From assembly GCA_903922605.1 (NCBI GenBank), contig CAIXUG010000003.1, positions 1-64,000 of the forward strand: a stretch of DNA of 64,000 bases. Reading direction: 5' to 3'. Origin of the DNA: an uncultured Verrucomicrobiota bacterium (lineage in GTDB: Bacteria > Verrucomicrobiota > Verrucomicrobiia > Limisphaerales > UBA9464). Position numbers and translations under genes: made by a program. How positions within the stretch are numbered: the stretch's first letter is position 1; every line of letters begins with the position of its first letter. This document shows, piece after piece, positions 7,168 through 45,980 of this stretch. Under the pieces are notes generated by a model. That model was not told the origin of the DNA, searched no databases, and was given only the letters and a program-made list of their open reading frames with translations.

Positions 7168-8244
7168 GTGCGTTCCGACCTTCTGGGCTCCGTCAGCCGC
7201 ATTGTCGTCAAGCTGGGCACCGGCGTCCTCACGGACAGCCGGAAGCGCCCGGACCAGGTGCAGTTTGCCCAGCTCGTGGCCCAGATCGCGGCGCTGCGGG
7301 CGGCAGGCAAGGAGGTCGTGCTGGTCACCTCCGGCGCGGTCGGCGCCGGCATGGGCGTGCTCGGCCATGAGGAGCGTCCGGCGGCGCTCGCGGAGCGACA
7401 GGCCTGTGCGGCGGTGGGCCAGTCACGCCTCATGGCAATGTACGAGGCGCTCTTCCGCCACTACGAGCTGACGGTCGGCCAGGTACTGCTCACGCATGAG
7501 GATCTCGCGGATCACACCCGCCACCTAAATGCCCGCAACACGCTGCTGACGCTGCTCAAGCGCGGCGTGGTGCCCATCATCAACGAGAACGATGCCGTTT
7601 CGGTCACCGAGCTGAAGTTCGGCGACAACGACAAGCTCTCGGCCCTCGTCGCGAGCCTGTTGCCGGCGGATTTGCTGGTCATCCTCACCACGGCGGACGG
7701 CCTGCTGCAAAATTTCGGCAAGCCCGACGAAAAACTGCTCTCCATCGTCGAGCGCATCGATGAACGCATCGAGGACATGGCCGGCGGAACGACCAGCGTC
7801 ACGGCGACAGGTGGCATGGCGACGAAGATTCTGGCCGCGAGGACCGTGGTTCGCGCGGGCATCCCGCTGGTCATTGCCCCGGGCAGGAAGTTCGACGTGC
7901 TCGCCCGGATTTTGTCCGGAGAGGAAGAGGGCACCTATTTCGTGCCGAACGTCACGCGTCTCACGAGCCGCAAGCGGTGGATTGCCTTTTACCATCACGC
8001 CGCCGGCACATTGGTGGTGGATGATGGTGCCAAGCGCGCGCTGCGCGACCAGTCTCGCAGCCTCCTCGCTCCCGGCATCAGCCGCAGCGAAGGCGAATTC
8101 GTCGCGGGCGATGTCGTCCGTATCTGTGACCTCGCGGGCCACGAATTCGCGCGCGGACTCGCCCGTATCAGCGCCGCCGAACTCCGCTCAGGGGCAGCCC
8201 CGCGCAAAGAGGTGGTCCACCGCGACGACCTCGTGATCTTGTGA
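7168..8244 (+). CDS. proB: Glutamate 5-kinase
   Basis: Phosphorylates glutamate to gamma-glutamyl phosphate, the first step of proline synthesis. The 358-residue chain has the amino-acid-kinase domain first (about 1-255): RIVVKLGTGVLT near the start, VLVTSGAVGAG, the NARNTLLTLL and INENDAVSV glutamate/ATP region, and FGDNDKLSALVA. A PUA domain follows (about 270-350), with GTLVVDDGAKRAL and the SRSLLAPGI and FVAGDVV turns, as in full-length proteobacterial-type ProB. No proA is adjacent. The next gene, mazG, follows after a palindromic repeat, so an operon is uncertain. Confidence 0.96.
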   Translation: MRSDLLGSVSRIVVKLGTGVLTDSRKRPDQVQFAQLVAQIAALRAAGKEVVLVTSGAVGAGMGVLGHEERPAALAERQACAAVGQSRLMAMYEALFRHYELTVGQVLLTHEDLADHTRHLNARNTLLTLLKRGVVPIINENDAVSVTELKFGDNDKLSALVASLLPADLLVILTTADGLLQNFGKPDEKLLSIVERIDERIEDMAGGTTSVTATGGMATKILAARTVVRAGIPLVIAPGRKFDVLARILSGEEEGTYFVPNVTRLTSRKRWIAFYHHAAGTLVVDDGAKRALRDQSRSLLAPGISRSEGEFVAGDVVRICDLAGHEFARGLARISAAELRSGAAPRKEVVHRDDLVIL

Positions 8245-42879: not shown

Positions 42880-43027
42880 AAGGCGGAGGAACGGTAGGGG
42901 CGGGGCGGAAGCGTAGCAAGAAGACGGAAGATCAGCTCCGGCATGACGTTCACCGGTTGCCGCTTATGGCTGCGGACGCTGTTGACGGAGCCGAGCGCAG
43001 GGAAGAGCCGCCGACGCGTAATTTCGT

Positions 43028-43054
43028 TAAAGTCCTAGGGCACGTTGCCGATGA
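43028..43054 (+). promoter_or_regulatory. Sigma-28 (FliA) type promoter of flagellin 1
   Basis: TAAA at 43028-43031, a 15-base spacer, then GCCGATGA at 43047-43054. The sigma-28 consensus is TAAA-N15-GCCGATAA. A start of transcription near 43061 would give a 5' leader of about 132 nt. Confidence 0.85.
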
Positions 43055-43073
43055 AAGAGGTGTCAGTGAGGCG

Positions 43074-43192
43074 GCCGGCAGCCAGAAATAGCCGGCGGGA
43101 AAACGGTGGACGCCCATTTGAAGGTCCATCCACGGCAAGGACGCCGTGCAACAAACAATGCCCCGCAAGGGGCAAACTCATGGATAGAGTTT
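43074..43192 (+). promoter_or_regulatory. Structured flagellin leader 1 (five hairpins, two with ANGGA loops)
   Basis: P0: GCCGGC 43074-43079 / 43091-43096. A: 43105-43111 / 43124-43130 (7 bp with one G-T). B: CACGGC/GCCGTG 43131-43148 with loop AAGGAC. C: TGCCCC-GCAA-GGGGCA 43159-43174. D: AAACTC/GAGTTT 43174-43192 with loop ATGGATA, ending at the base before ATG. Loops B and D contain ANGGA, the element bound by CsrA/RsmA, and D covers the ribosome-binding region. The same fold recurs at 44172 and 44989. Confidence 0.75.
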
Positions 43193-43996
43193 ATGGTCAT
43201 CAATACTAACATCTCGGCTCAAAACGGTGCTCGCTACCTCGCGGATTCGAGCGCAATGCTCAGCAAATCCCTCGCTCGTCTGTCTTCCGGCTCGAAGCTC
43301 ACTTCGCCGGAGGATGATGCCGCCGGGCTTGCAGTTTCCGTTCGGTTCGACGCGCAGATCAGCCGGATCGGTGCGGCCGTCTCCAATCTGGGAAATGCCA
43401 CTTCATTCAACCAGACGCAGGACGGTTATCTCGGCAAAGTCGGCAACGCGCTCAATCGCATGAGTGAACTCAGCGTCCTCTCGCAGGACGTGACCAAGTC
43501 CGACAGCGATCGGTCCCTCTACAACGCCGAATTCACGCAGCTCGGGGCCTATGTCAATGACATCGCGACCAAGCAGTTCAACGGAGTCAACCTGTTTGAC
43601 GGCACCTCCCTGAACGTGACGACGGACGGCGACGGCTCCACCGTGGCCACCACCGGAGTCAATCTCGCGGCCTCGGCCTACACCACGGCCACGGGTTCGA
43701 CCGTGGACACCGCCGCGAATGCGGCCACCGCCCTGACCAACGTCAAGGCGGCCATCGATCAGCTTTCAACGGATCGCGCCAACCTGGGCGCGAACTTGTC
43801 GGTGATGGGTTCCTACAGCGCGCAGCTGAGCGTGCTGAGCGACAACCTCACCCAGGCCAACAGCCGGATCAAGGATGTCGATGTCGCGCAGGAAAGCACG
43901 AACTTCGCCAAGGCGAACATCCTGGTCCAGGCAGGCACCGCGATGCTGGCCCAGGCGAATTCCTCGTCGCAGTCGGTGATGAAGCTGATGCAGTAA
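43193..43996 (+). CDS. fliC: Flagellin 1
   Basis: A 267-residue filament subunit. The start at MVINTNISAQNGARYLADSS is the conserved flagellin N-terminus; the open frame upstream is the leader. The N-terminal D0/D1 helices include LARLSSGSKLTSPEDDAAGLAV, and FNGVNLFDG closes D1. The variable centre is short (about residues 145-185), so D2/D3 are essentially absent. The C-terminal D1/D0 helix is IKDVDVAQESTNFAKANILVQAGTAMLAQANSSSQSVMKLMQ. It is very similar to flagellin 2. Secretion is by the flagellar type III apparatus. A sigma-28 promoter and terminator bracket the gene as a single-gene unit. Confidence 0.96.
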   Translation: MVINTNISAQNGARYLADSSAMLSKSLARLSSGSKLTSPEDDAAGLAVSVRFDAQISRIGAAVSNLGNATSFNQTQDGYLGKVGNALNRMSELSVLSQDVTKSDSDRSLYNAEFTQLGAYVNDIATKQFNGVNLFDGTSLNVTTDGDGSTVATTGVNLAASAYTTATGSTVDTAANAATALTNVKAAIDQLSTDRANLGANLSVMGSYSAQLSVLSDNLTQANSRIKDVDVAQESTNFAKANILVQAGTAMLAQANSSSQSVMKLMQ

Positions 43997-44016
43997 TCTG
44001 ATCTGATCACAGGTCG

Positions 44017-44052
44017 GGCCCGGATGGTTTCAAAGCCGTCCGGGCCTTTTTC
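44017..44052 (+). terminator. Rho-independent terminator after flagellin 1
   Basis: The 8-bp stem GGCCCGGA/TCCGGGCC with a 14-base loop is followed by five T (one C later). It lies 20 bases after the stop codon. Confidence 0.9.
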
Positions 44053-44126
44053 ATTTCATATCCGGGTCAAGTCCCATGCGCCGTCGTATGCCTGACTTTT
44101 CTCAGTCCCAGGCGGGCGCAAAACGC

Positions 44127-44153
44127 TCAAGTTTCGACGGCATCTGCCGATAT
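44127..44153 (+). promoter_or_regulatory. Sigma-28 type promoter of the orphan middle module
   Basis: TCAA 44127-44130, a 15-base spacer, then GCCGATAT 44146-44153. Distance to the following ATG is 138 bases from the -10 box, against 139 at flagellin 1 and 130 at flagellin 2. Confidence 0.75.
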
Positions 44154-44171
44154 CAGATGGACTAGAAAAGG

Positions 44172-44290
44172 TGCCGGCCACCGAAAACACCGGCAGGGGA
44201 ACGCGGTGAGCATCCCGGTCAAACACGCTCACTCACGGCAAGGAAGCCGTGGCAGCCGCCCGCAAGGGTCAACCACTCACGGATCGAGTC
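44172..44290 (+). promoter_or_regulatory. Structured flagellin-type leader 2, not followed by a flagellin
   Basis: P0: TGCCGG/CCGGCA 44172-44177 / 44190-44195. A: GTGAGC/GCTCAC 44206-44211 / 44227-44232. B: CACGGC/GCCGTG 44234-44251 with loop AAGGAA. C: CCC-GCAA-GGG 44259-44268. D: ACTC/GAGT 44275-44289 with loop ACGGATC. It has the same length (119 nt), order and loop motifs as leader 1, with different stem bases in P0, A and D. Confidence 0.75.
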
Positions 44291-44950
44291 ATGGTCACCA
44301 CCACCAGCGTCGTATCGCCACGCAGCGAGCGACATTCCGCCGAATCGGGCTTCGCGCCCGGCTGGCTTCCCCAGTTTGCCCCGCCCCGACGCTGGCCATC
44401 CCGGTCGGGGGTGAAGCTTTCCGCCGCGCCAACGCTGCCGGCAGGCGATTCTTTGGATTGGTCCGGCGACATTGCCTGGCGTCCCCAAGTCGTCCCCGCT
44501 TTCCATGGTCACAGGCGGCGAGCCTGCCGTTGCCAGATCATCCGGGGTGGTGGCTGCGCGGCTGCGGCGGCGCCCCCCTCCGGCGACAGCTGTCCGCGAC
44601 ATTTCTGCCGCCCCGGAAATGCGGACCCCCTGCGCCCGCCGGAATCAGGCGGGACACCCCGGGAGAGGGTGCCGAGGACGACCCCTTTCCGTATCATATC
44701 CGGACCTCCCCTTTGCCGCGGGTCCCGGGCCAACCGGAGGGGGCGCCATGTCTGATCCGTCTCTGCGGCGTTTCCTGCGGCGTGGCCTGCGTCGCCGGCC
44801 CATCGCAAAATCGCACGATTTTCTCGGAAAGCATCGCCCGGACTGCACCCGGCCGGCACCGGATCGCGGGGCCGGAAATCCCACGGATGCGGCCACGTTC
44901 TGCGTGCTGATCCAAAGATGTGACATGACTGAAGATTTAATATATTTATA
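44291..44950 (+). other. Region after the orphan leader: no flagellin frame, decayed gene or RNA tail
   Basis: An ATG at 44291 sits exactly where the flagellin start should be, and the next codons give MVTTTS, close to MVINTN of the flagellins. The similarity then disappears. The frame runs to 44755 but is rich in Arg, Pro and Ser, with none of the flagellin helices, and no other frame restores them. The GC-rich sequence has no clear T-run terminator. It could be a heavily decayed flagellin gene, a foreign replacement, or the body of a non-coding RNA. Confidence 0.45.
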
Positions 44951-44977
44951 TAAAGAATCGGACGAATGTACCGATAT
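44951..44977 (+). promoter_or_regulatory. Sigma-28 type promoter of flagellin 2
   Basis: TAAA 44951-44954, a 15-base spacer, then ACCGATAT 44970-44977. It sits in a conspicuously AT-rich patch (TTAATATATTTATATAAAG), unlike the surrounding DNA. Confidence 0.85.
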
Positions 44978-44988
44978 AAGATTTGGCG

Positions 44989-45106
44989 GCCGGCGGCCAT
45001 AAAAGGCCGGCAGGGATCAGGGTGATGCCCGGGAAAGTTCACCGCGTGGCAGGGATGCCACGGCAACAATGCCCCCAATGGGGGTGACTCAAGGATAGGA
45101 GTCCAT
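44989..45106 (+). promoter_or_regulatory. Structured flagellin leader 3 (five hairpins, two with ANGGA loops)
   Basis: P0: GCCGGC 44989-44994 / 45006-45011. A: GGTGA/TTCACC-side pairing 45021-45025 / 45039-45043. B: CGTGGC/GCCACG 45045-45062 with loop AGGGAT. C: CCCCC/GGGGG 45072-45084. D: GACTC/GAGTC 45086-45103 with loop AAGGATAG. The likely Shine-Dalgarno AGGAG (45097-45101) lies inside hairpin D, 5 bases before ATG. The B stem shows compensated changes against leaders 1 and 2. Confidence 0.75.
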
Positions 45107-45910
45107 ATGGTAATCAACACTAACACAGCAGCAATGAACGGCGCGCGGATGCTCGCCGACTCGTCAACGGCGCTCAGCAAGTCCCTCGCACGTCTGTCCT
45201 CCGGCTCGAAGATCACTTCGCCGGAAGATGACGCCGCGGGTCTCGCCGTGTCGGTCCGGTTCGACGCGCAGATCAGCCGCATCGGTGCGGCCAGTTCCAA
45301 CATCGGCAACGCCATCTCGTTCAACCAGACGCAGGATGGCTACATGGGCAAGGTCAGCAACGCGCTCAATCGCATGAGCGAGCTGTCGGTCCTTTCCCAG
45401 GACGTGACCAAGTCGGATTCGGATCGCGCCCTGTACAACGCGGAGTTCACCCAGCTCGGCTCGTACATCAACGACACGGCGACCAAGCAGTTCAACGGGG
45501 TCAACCTGTTTGACGGCACGGCGCTGAATGTGACCACTGACAGTGAAGGCAACACGCTGGCCACCACCGGCGTCAACATGGCGGCGAGCGCCTACACCAC
45601 GGCGACCGGTTCCACGATCGACACCGCGGCCAATGCGGCCACCGCCCTGACCAACGTCAAGGCGGCCATTGACCAGCTCTCCACGGACCGCGCCAACCTT
45701 GGTGCCAACATCTCCGTGCTGGGCAGCTACAACGATCAGCTGTCGGTGCTCAAGGACAACCTGACCTCGGCCAACAGCCGCATCAAGGATGTCGATGTCG
45801 CCACCGAGAGCACCAATTTCGCCAAGGCGAACATCCTGGTCCAGGCTGGCACCTCGATGCTCGCCCAGGCGAATTCGTCCTCGCAGTCGGTGCTGAAGCT
45901 GCTGCAGTAA
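45107..45910 (+). CDS. fliC: Flagellin 2
   Basis: A 267-residue filament subunit closely matching flagellin 1 along its length. The N-terminal helices include MVINTNTAAMNGARMLADSS and SSGSKITSPEDDAAGLAVSV. A short centre with LNVTTDSEGNTLATTGVN is followed by the C-terminal helix ending SMLAQANSSSQSVLKLLQ. Differences are scattered and conservative, as expected for a tandem duplication followed by divergence. There is no D2/D3 domain. It has its own sigma-28 promoter, structured leader and terminator. Two filament proteins of equal length suggest alternative or mixed filaments. Confidence 0.96.
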   Translation: MVINTNTAAMNGARMLADSSTALSKSLARLSSGSKITSPEDDAAGLAVSVRFDAQISRIGAASSNIGNAISFNQTQDGYMGKVSNALNRMSELSVLSQDVTKSDSDRALYNAEFTQLGSYINDTATKQFNGVNLFDGTALNVTTDSEGNTLATTGVNMAASAYTTATGSTIDTAANAATALTNVKAAIDQLSTDRANLGANISVLGSYNDQLSVLKDNLTSANSRIKDVDVATESTNFAKANILVQAGTSMLAQANSSSQSVLKLLQ

Positions 45911-45945
45911 GCAGGTTAAGGCGCCTTGAGGCGCGGGTCTCCACG

Positions 45946-45980
45946 CCCCGGCGGTGCGCAAGCGCCGCCGGGGTCTTTTT
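45946..45980 (+). terminator. Rho-independent terminator after flagellin 2
   Basis: The 9-bp stem CCCCGGCGG/CCGCCGGGG is followed by TCTTTTT. It lies 35 bases after the stop. Confidence 0.92.

Follow-up and report, generated by a model that had tools for sequence, protein, structure and literature searches.

Organization of the flagellin locus

The window, i.e. the whole 64-kb stretch of DNA analysed, comes from an uncultured Verrucomicrobia-type bacterium and contains two flagellin genes, fla1 (43193-43996) and fla2 (45107-45910). A third promoter and leader sits between them and has no flagellin of its own; we refer to it as the orphan. The locus comprises the following features, for which G004 denotes the sister genome:

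43028-43996, + strand: fla1, with promoter, leader (43072-43198) and CDS (43193-43996); pattern and covariance model
44016-44047: terminator-like site just beyond fla1
44127-44151, + strand: sigma-28-type promoter of the orphan, TCAAG-N15-CCGAT; pattern match
44163-44366, + strand: proposed orphan RNA, its ends predicted from promoter position, constraint and fold
44171-44296, + strand: orphan flagellin leader, match to covariance model R1 (66.8 bits, E 7.9e-16)
44172-44195, + strand: helix P1, UGCCGG (44172-44177) with CCGGCA (44190-44195); read from sequence, covaries across leaders
44196-44232, + strand: possible H-type pseudoknot, of which S2 covaries strongly and S1 hardly
44196-44199 with 44213-44216, + strand: S1, GGGG with UCCC
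44206-44211 with 44227-44232, + strand: S2, GUGAGC with GCUCAC
44234-44251, + strand: helix P3, CACGGC-AAGGAA-GCCGTG, with hexaloop and CsrA-type CANGGANG site; read from sequence, consensus as quoted in PMC4894983
44258-44269, + strand: helix P4, GCCC-GCAA-GGGU; a G-U pair is G-C in G004
44275-44289, + strand: helix P5, ACUC-ACGGAUC-GAGU, with ANGGA loop above presumed ribosome-binding site
44291-44350, + strand: ATG and 57 bases, flagellin-start trace (34/60 to fla1), unchanged in G004
44304-44365, + strand: predicted 3' multibranch fold closed by CCAGC/GCUGG; G004 changes confined to loop 44351-44355
44366-44935, + strand: filler or former body, about 81-85% identical to G004 over most of its length and about 92% at 44701-44850
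44951-45910, + strand: fla2, with promoter, leader (44987-45112) and CDS (45107-45910); pattern and covariance model
45945-45974: terminator-like site beyond fla2

The orphan promoter is assigned to the sigma-28 type by consensus match alone: the pattern TMAAG-N15-CCGAT has three matches in the 64-kb window, at 43028 (fla1), 44127 (orphan) and 44951 (fla2). The expected number in 64 kb is 0.22, and three matches were reached in one of 100 shuffles.

Covariance model R1 was searched against the whole 5.3-Mb genome and gave three convincing matches, at 43072-43198, 44171-44296 and 44987-45112; the next-best match has E 0.15. Because R1 was built from 25 leaders that included the orphan, the score of the orphan is partly circular, and E-values obtained with this model are approximate. 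The orphan is also recovered when the fla1 leader serves as query in a plain DNA search (73% identity over 64 bases, E 0.0027). In the leader tree (40 of 46 rows) the orphan occupies a long branch with no clear parent, and its identity to fla1 is 66%. The initial annotation had described the middle module as a complete promoter and leader with both ANGGA hairpins and an ATG, which is confirmed by pattern, covariance model and sequence.

A third flagellin gene of this genome, on contig C86, has no R1 match ahead of it. Elsewhere in the genus, two flagellins are separated by about 250 bases in four members and by about 320 bases in a fifth.

The ATG at 44291 is not followed by a recognisable flagellin. 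When the first 60 bases from this codon are compared with the fla1 start in register, 34 are identical (background 15.1 +- 3.4), a level reached at 3 of 63,900 plus-strand positions. When the 57 bases that follow the ATG are aligned locally with gaps, the result is not significant (61 of 200 shuffles are equal or better). The in-register match suggests that about 20 flagellin codons persist as a trace. A flagellin remnant in 44351-44935 was rejected, as 98 of 129 window controls score at least as high in global alignment to five flagellin genes and the best E of relaxed tblastn is 0.15; local alignment of this stretch to flagellin has a score of 181, matched by 4 of 60 shuffles. The claim that no flagellin-like frame follows MVTTTS thus holds for the body, but not for the first 20 or so codons.

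In place of flagellin, a folded tail is predicted. The stretch 44302-44367 has a folding energy of -29.1 kcal/mol (z -2.06; for 44294-44367, z -1.56), and its G004 counterpart has the identical structure (z -2.88).

A separate 84-aa frame lies at 44748-45002. It has a GGAGG-type site ahead of its ATG, is open in both genomes and overlaps the fla2 leader. Its G004 changes in 44748-44935 number 5, 4 and 13 by codon position, and Pfam search (44748-44999) returned no match. The segment 44701-44850, which contains this frame, is somewhat better kept than its neighbours (12 of 150 bases differ from G004).

The leader as an RNA family

Leaders of many genera have P1, S2, P3, P4 and P5 in common. A strict scan of 293 genomes of the order detected the R1 family in 114 of them and missed at least one leader (that of G009). 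Among 387 genomes of the phylum, searched with stricter filters and with the number of members of the order in the sample not given, the leader appeared only in this genome, along with one weak match outside the order (E 2.9e-5).

Pairing was evaluated in 45 distinct rows. Paired cells amount to 92.1%, both sides change in 22 of 26 pairs, and there are 168 double-change cells versus 48.0 in shuffles (0 of 500 shuffles as high); the alignment behind these figures was fitted to the structure, which favours pairing, and its rows include near-identical sister sequences. Arms were also swapped between leaders in 38 of 46 rows, with chance or poor rows and duplicates left out (41 of 46 rows served for constraint and loop counts). 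P1, S2, P3 and P4 were clearly shortened by swapping, P5 little and S1 hardly. With 3.53 for native versus 3.32 +- 0.08 for swapped arms, S1 of the pseudoknot is too weak to claim.

Rfam 15 yielded no match for 12 relative loci, and for 42900-45250 of the window, with matches accepted to E 10, it returned seven weak ones that fell far short of their gathering scores. In the open-licence literature, represented mostly by titles and the beginnings of abstracts, neither an orphan flagellin leader nor this leader family was found. The leaders constitute a structured flagellin-leader RNA family without Rfam 15 match, characterised by P1 and S2, a possible pseudoknot and two ANGGA hairpins.

Compared with shuffles, no extra fold stability was detected for the orphan leader alone (z 0.05) or for the 204-nt proposed RNA (z -0.49). 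With the full RNA no more stable than shuffles, the argument for function draws on constraint and homology instead of stability.

The two GGA loops are strongly retained across the family: of 41 leader rows, 38 have a P3 hexaloop of the CANGGANG form and 40 have CANGGA in P5. PMC4894983 terms the CANGGANG hexaloop the high-affinity form for CsrA. P3 of the orphan (C-AAGGAA-G) fits this type more closely than P5, whose loop ACGGAUC is a heptaloop. Genes for CsrA (C86:205091-205249) and FliW (C86:204701-205057) are adjacent, just ahead of the third flagellin. Among the 293 genomes, 95 have both leader and csrA, 19 the leader only, 26 csrA only and 153 neither, a co-occurrence confounded by the fact that both go with having flagella. 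Some of the 19 leader genomes (of 114) without csrA match are incomplete.

Leaders without flagellin also occur elsewhere. The leader matches listed were paired by eye with flagellin positions; weaker matches were examined fully in 39 genomes, and weaker orphans in other genomes are missed. Among the matches listed, eight candidates besides this genome and G004 seem to have no flagellin start or a short one. G241, G068, G205:C419, G217 and G078 were dropped, as their leaders lie at or near a contig end, which leaves G016, G292 and G130. The last two are single cases and less clear; the G130 contig ends about 480 bases past the leader, in a non-flagellin frame. Among further matches, two in G283 represent contig ends, and a single one in G265 (E 8e-4) probably arose by chance. 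Loci of particular interest are:

G016:C19:5672-5802 (L128): orphan of genus g3
G300:C92:6821-6950 (L152): orphan of genus g3
G303:C183:5395-5524 (L153): orphan of genus g3
G205:C273:4152-5379 (L164): repeated leader-like units (E 2.5e-6, 8.5e-4 and 8.5e-4)
G268:C163:17880-17991 (L155): leader and promoter before response-regulator gene (PF00072, E 7.2e-21)
G283:C116:70560-70671 (L158): leader and promoter before response-regulator gene (PF00072, E 3.8e-21)
G009:C16:25074-25209 (L154): leader, then flagellin start stopping after 35 codons

The g3 orphan, common to three genomes, is preceded by boxes of the sigma-28 type (TCAAG-N15-ACGAT) and lacks an ATG at the usual place. It precedes a long gene with a CADCH motif and without Pfam match. 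Identities among these genomes are 94-97% in the leader, 96-98% in the next 139 bases and 83-85% in the 150 bases that follow; the 240 bases upstream are 91-97% identical and the promoter region 88-90%. Since the upstream sequence is as conserved as the leader, constraint on the g3 leader is not demonstrated. The tail of the G016-type orphan has no extra stability against shuffles (z 0.24).

G205 belongs to another family, is 67% complete and has no csrA match. Upstream of a flagellin, it has three weaker units spaced at about 560 bases; ATG-AGT-CCA-stop (MSP) and a common downstream stretch come after each of them. A fourth unit, with identical P5 and start, is located near 8019.

Because the leaders of G268 and G283 precede response regulators, the leader is not bound to flagellin alone and may serve further genes of the motility regulon.

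Constraint on the orphan in the sister genome

G004 carries the orphan at the identical place and in the identical arrangement. Between the two genomes, 44127-44366, a span defined by promoter and fold, shows 8 differences in 240 bases, as compared with 104 of 679 in the flanks (44000-44126 and 44367-44935; binomial P 1.6e-9). For 44144-44350, a span chosen once the changes had been seen, the figures are 2 of 207 inside and 79 of 460 in closer flanking sequence (P 1.1e-14). The constrained unit stops near 44366, so that the span of the module, initially drawn to 44950, has to be shortened.

The orphan leader is kept about as its neighbours are: 2 of 120 bases are changed in G004, 1 of 124 in the fla1 leader and 0 of 122 in the fla2 leader. 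With promoters included, changes number 5 of 160 (orphan), 8 of 167 (fla1) and 4 of 171 (fla2); for the proposed RNA, the figure is 5 of 204. Both boxes of the orphan promoter are intact, and its spacer is changed at 44133, 44136 and 44143. The two leader changes are compatible with the fold: 44222 lies in a loop, and 44269 makes a G-U pair of P4 into G-C. Constraint extends about 57 bases beyond the ATG, a stretch with zero changes in G004; neither this extension nor the wide distribution of the leader family figures in the initial annotation. The next changes, at 44351, 44352 and 44354, all fall into a 5-base hairpin loop and leave stems intact; being clustered, they may represent a single event.

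The evidence for constraint comes from comparison of two draft genomes. Of 50 genomes in the taxonomic family, two, this one and G004, gave full-length matches to the unit, and eight more gave short ones. Among 30 comparison loci from named relatives one was useful, the rest including distant flagellins of Firmicutes and Actinobacteria. The initial annotation had doubted simple decay and proposed alignment with relatives and comparison of leader and downstream substitution rates. Both analyses bear out this doubt. The sole relative found with the site, G004, has the orphan there and not an intact third flagellin, and its leader is far from being as degraded as the body (2/120 versus 104/679 around the unit). 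Since the unit is nearly unchanged in the sister species while its surroundings drifted, the orphan module is probably a functional RNA rather than a dead gene.

Neither csrA nor fliW was found in the G004 assembly, because its contig has a clean 6-kb gap there. The absent 6 kb hold fliW and csrA together with a flgL-like gene (Flagellin_N domain) and the greater part of the third flagellin; the join point is around 3078 of L149, equal to G004:C60 near 392577. In G004 fla1, moreover, 5 bases are deleted shortly downstream of the start (L069, near 2565). This reflects either recent decay of the flagellar system or an assembly error. If the gap is real, the orphan RNA has no CsrA in G004 now, and the conserved G004 orphan would predate the flagellar decay or the gap.

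Possible roles of the orphan RNA

Titration of CsrA by the orphan RNA is plausible in view of its CANGGANG hexaloop, the presence of csrA and fliW and the Campylobacter jejuni precedent (below). From the computed evidence, namely a promoter match, a homologous leader, constraint and a missing body, we infer transcription, RNA ends, CsrA binding and the effect on flagellin in the following model. The sigma-28-type promoter would yield an RNA of about 200 nt (44163-44366) at the late flagellar stage, alongside flagellin mRNAs. This RNA would retain the whole flagellin leader fold, including the CANGGANG hexaloop of P3 and the ANGGA loop of P5 above the former ribosome-binding site, and would terminate in its own folded tail in place of flagellin. 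One CsrA dimer would most likely be bound via P3 and P5. Less CsrA would thereby remain on the leaders of the neighbours fla1 and fla2, so that flagellin would be translated more readily during sigma-28 activity. With two GGA hairpins, far below the number in CsrB-type sponges, the RNA would have to be abundant. P1 and S2, furthermore, are conserved beyond the needs of CsrA, which counts against the model. A decoy is nonetheless the most economical interpretation, and we see about even chances that the orphan is a leader-derived, sigma-28-timed RNA with CsrA titration as its main role.

A close likeness is offered by C. jejuni flaA, which resembles the orphan in its sigma-28-driven flagellin leader, its GGA hexaloop hairpins and FliW in the system (PMC4894983). 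There, flaA_mini, an RNA of about 250 nt that consists of the flaA leader and 17 codons under the native promoter, antagonises CsrA, and its expression in a fliW mutant brought about a roughly 2.6-fold increase in FlaA (PMC4894983). By the same account, flaA_mini is a laboratory construct, and the antagonist that occurs naturally is the complete mRNA. The orphan, by contrast, is a leader-only copy fixed in the genome, and its CsrA role is predicted. The fold of the orphan leader also differs from that of the flaA leader.

At the Bacillus subtilis hag leader, flagellin translation is controlled by CsrA in partnership with FliW (Hag-FliW-CsrA; PMC6529632). The fold of the hag leader is other than that of the orphan leader. 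We know of no orphan copy of the hag leader.

The sponge RNAs CsrB/CsrC and RsmX/Y/Z sequester CsrA by many GGA sites and are not copies of leaders. The function proposed for the orphan is alike, but the orphan has two sites, a sigma-28-type promoter and no Rfam match. Membership in the CsrB/RsmZ type was accordingly rejected, given two GGA hairpins and no Rfam match near threshold.

MotR and FliX are base-pairing RNAs, whereas protein titration is proposed for the orphan. The likeness lies in late flagellar timing, as these are sigma-28-dependent UTR-derived sRNAs of Escherichia coli (PMC10578931). Listeria Rli55, according to PMC8079631, is a regulatory element in a separate RNA that binds EutV, the regulator of a nearby operon; it differs by employing an antiterminator protein and a B12 riboswitch and is unrelated to the orphan in sequence.

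A functional leader-derived RNA might instead have a partner other than CsrA: the P1/S2 domain, with its possible pseudoknot, would bind a protein or small molecule, which the orphan would titrate or sense. Covariation of P1 and S2 is in favour of such a partner, as are the leaders ahead of response-regulator genes in two genomes and the 19 of 114 leader genomes without csrA match, G004 and the orphan case G205 among them. The retention of both GGA loops (38/41 and 40/41) and the lack of a fitting Rfam family, riboswitches included, oppose it, and we regard this alternative as unlikely.

We also considered that the leader controls a small, fast-evolving protein, e.g. a substrate of flagellar export, encoded from the ATG at 44291 and constrained in its first 20 residues alone. 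This frame has 154 aa in our genome, the ATG and the hairpin above the ribosome-binding site are retained, and the frame stays open to an identical TGA in both genomes despite a net indel of 15 bases. Against this, substitutions to 44509 number 9, 9 and 10 at the three codon positions, with 6 codons changed synonymously and 19 nonsynonymously; the even spread argues against a minus-strand gene there as well. The first 20 codons are free even of synonymous changes. Past its conserved start, the frame is without coding constraint and changes as expected without selection. The 154-aa frame has no Pfam match, the orphan of the other genus has no ATG there, and G205 units stop after three codons. 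Such a protein is therefore improbable.

The orphan could also be a second, upstream promoter and leader of fla2, acting in cis by read-through over about 740 bases. The two are on the same strand, and no terminator-like site was found between 44366 and 45945, hence none before fla2, which makes the 3' end of the orphan RNA a guess. On the other hand, fla2 possesses its own promoter and leader, the intervening stretch is mostly little constrained, and the constrained unit closes in a fold at 44365; we judge read-through to be quite unlikely.

A dying third flagellin gene with a leader that has not decayed yet is very unlikely, for although the first 20 codons leave a trace, tandem flagellins with three leaders exist in the order (e.g. 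G275), the G009 flagellin start is cut after 35 codons and G004 fla1 bears its 5-base deletion, the body is unrecognisable, its place drifted by about 15-17% while the leader changed by less than 2% over the same time, and the orphan state shared with G004 means that the body was lost before the two genomes split.

Flagellin genes of the order might repeatedly bud off leader-only RNA genes, which acquire tails of their own and are retained as sigma-28-timed decoys for CsrA or another partner. We put this forward tentatively; the corresponding reading of single copies here, perhaps also in a second genus, and of repeated units in G205 is likewise possible but doubtful.

An RNA family accompanies the orphan, namely the flagellin leader without match in Rfam release 15, and the orphan makes it possible to test whether these bacteria control flagellin through CsrA. 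The artificial mini-transcript of C. jejuni tested a leader acting apart from its gene, and evolution seems to have made such a construct here. If confirmed, this would represent a route to the birth of a regulatory RNA gene, in which a leader is copied, the protein is lost and the fold is kept.
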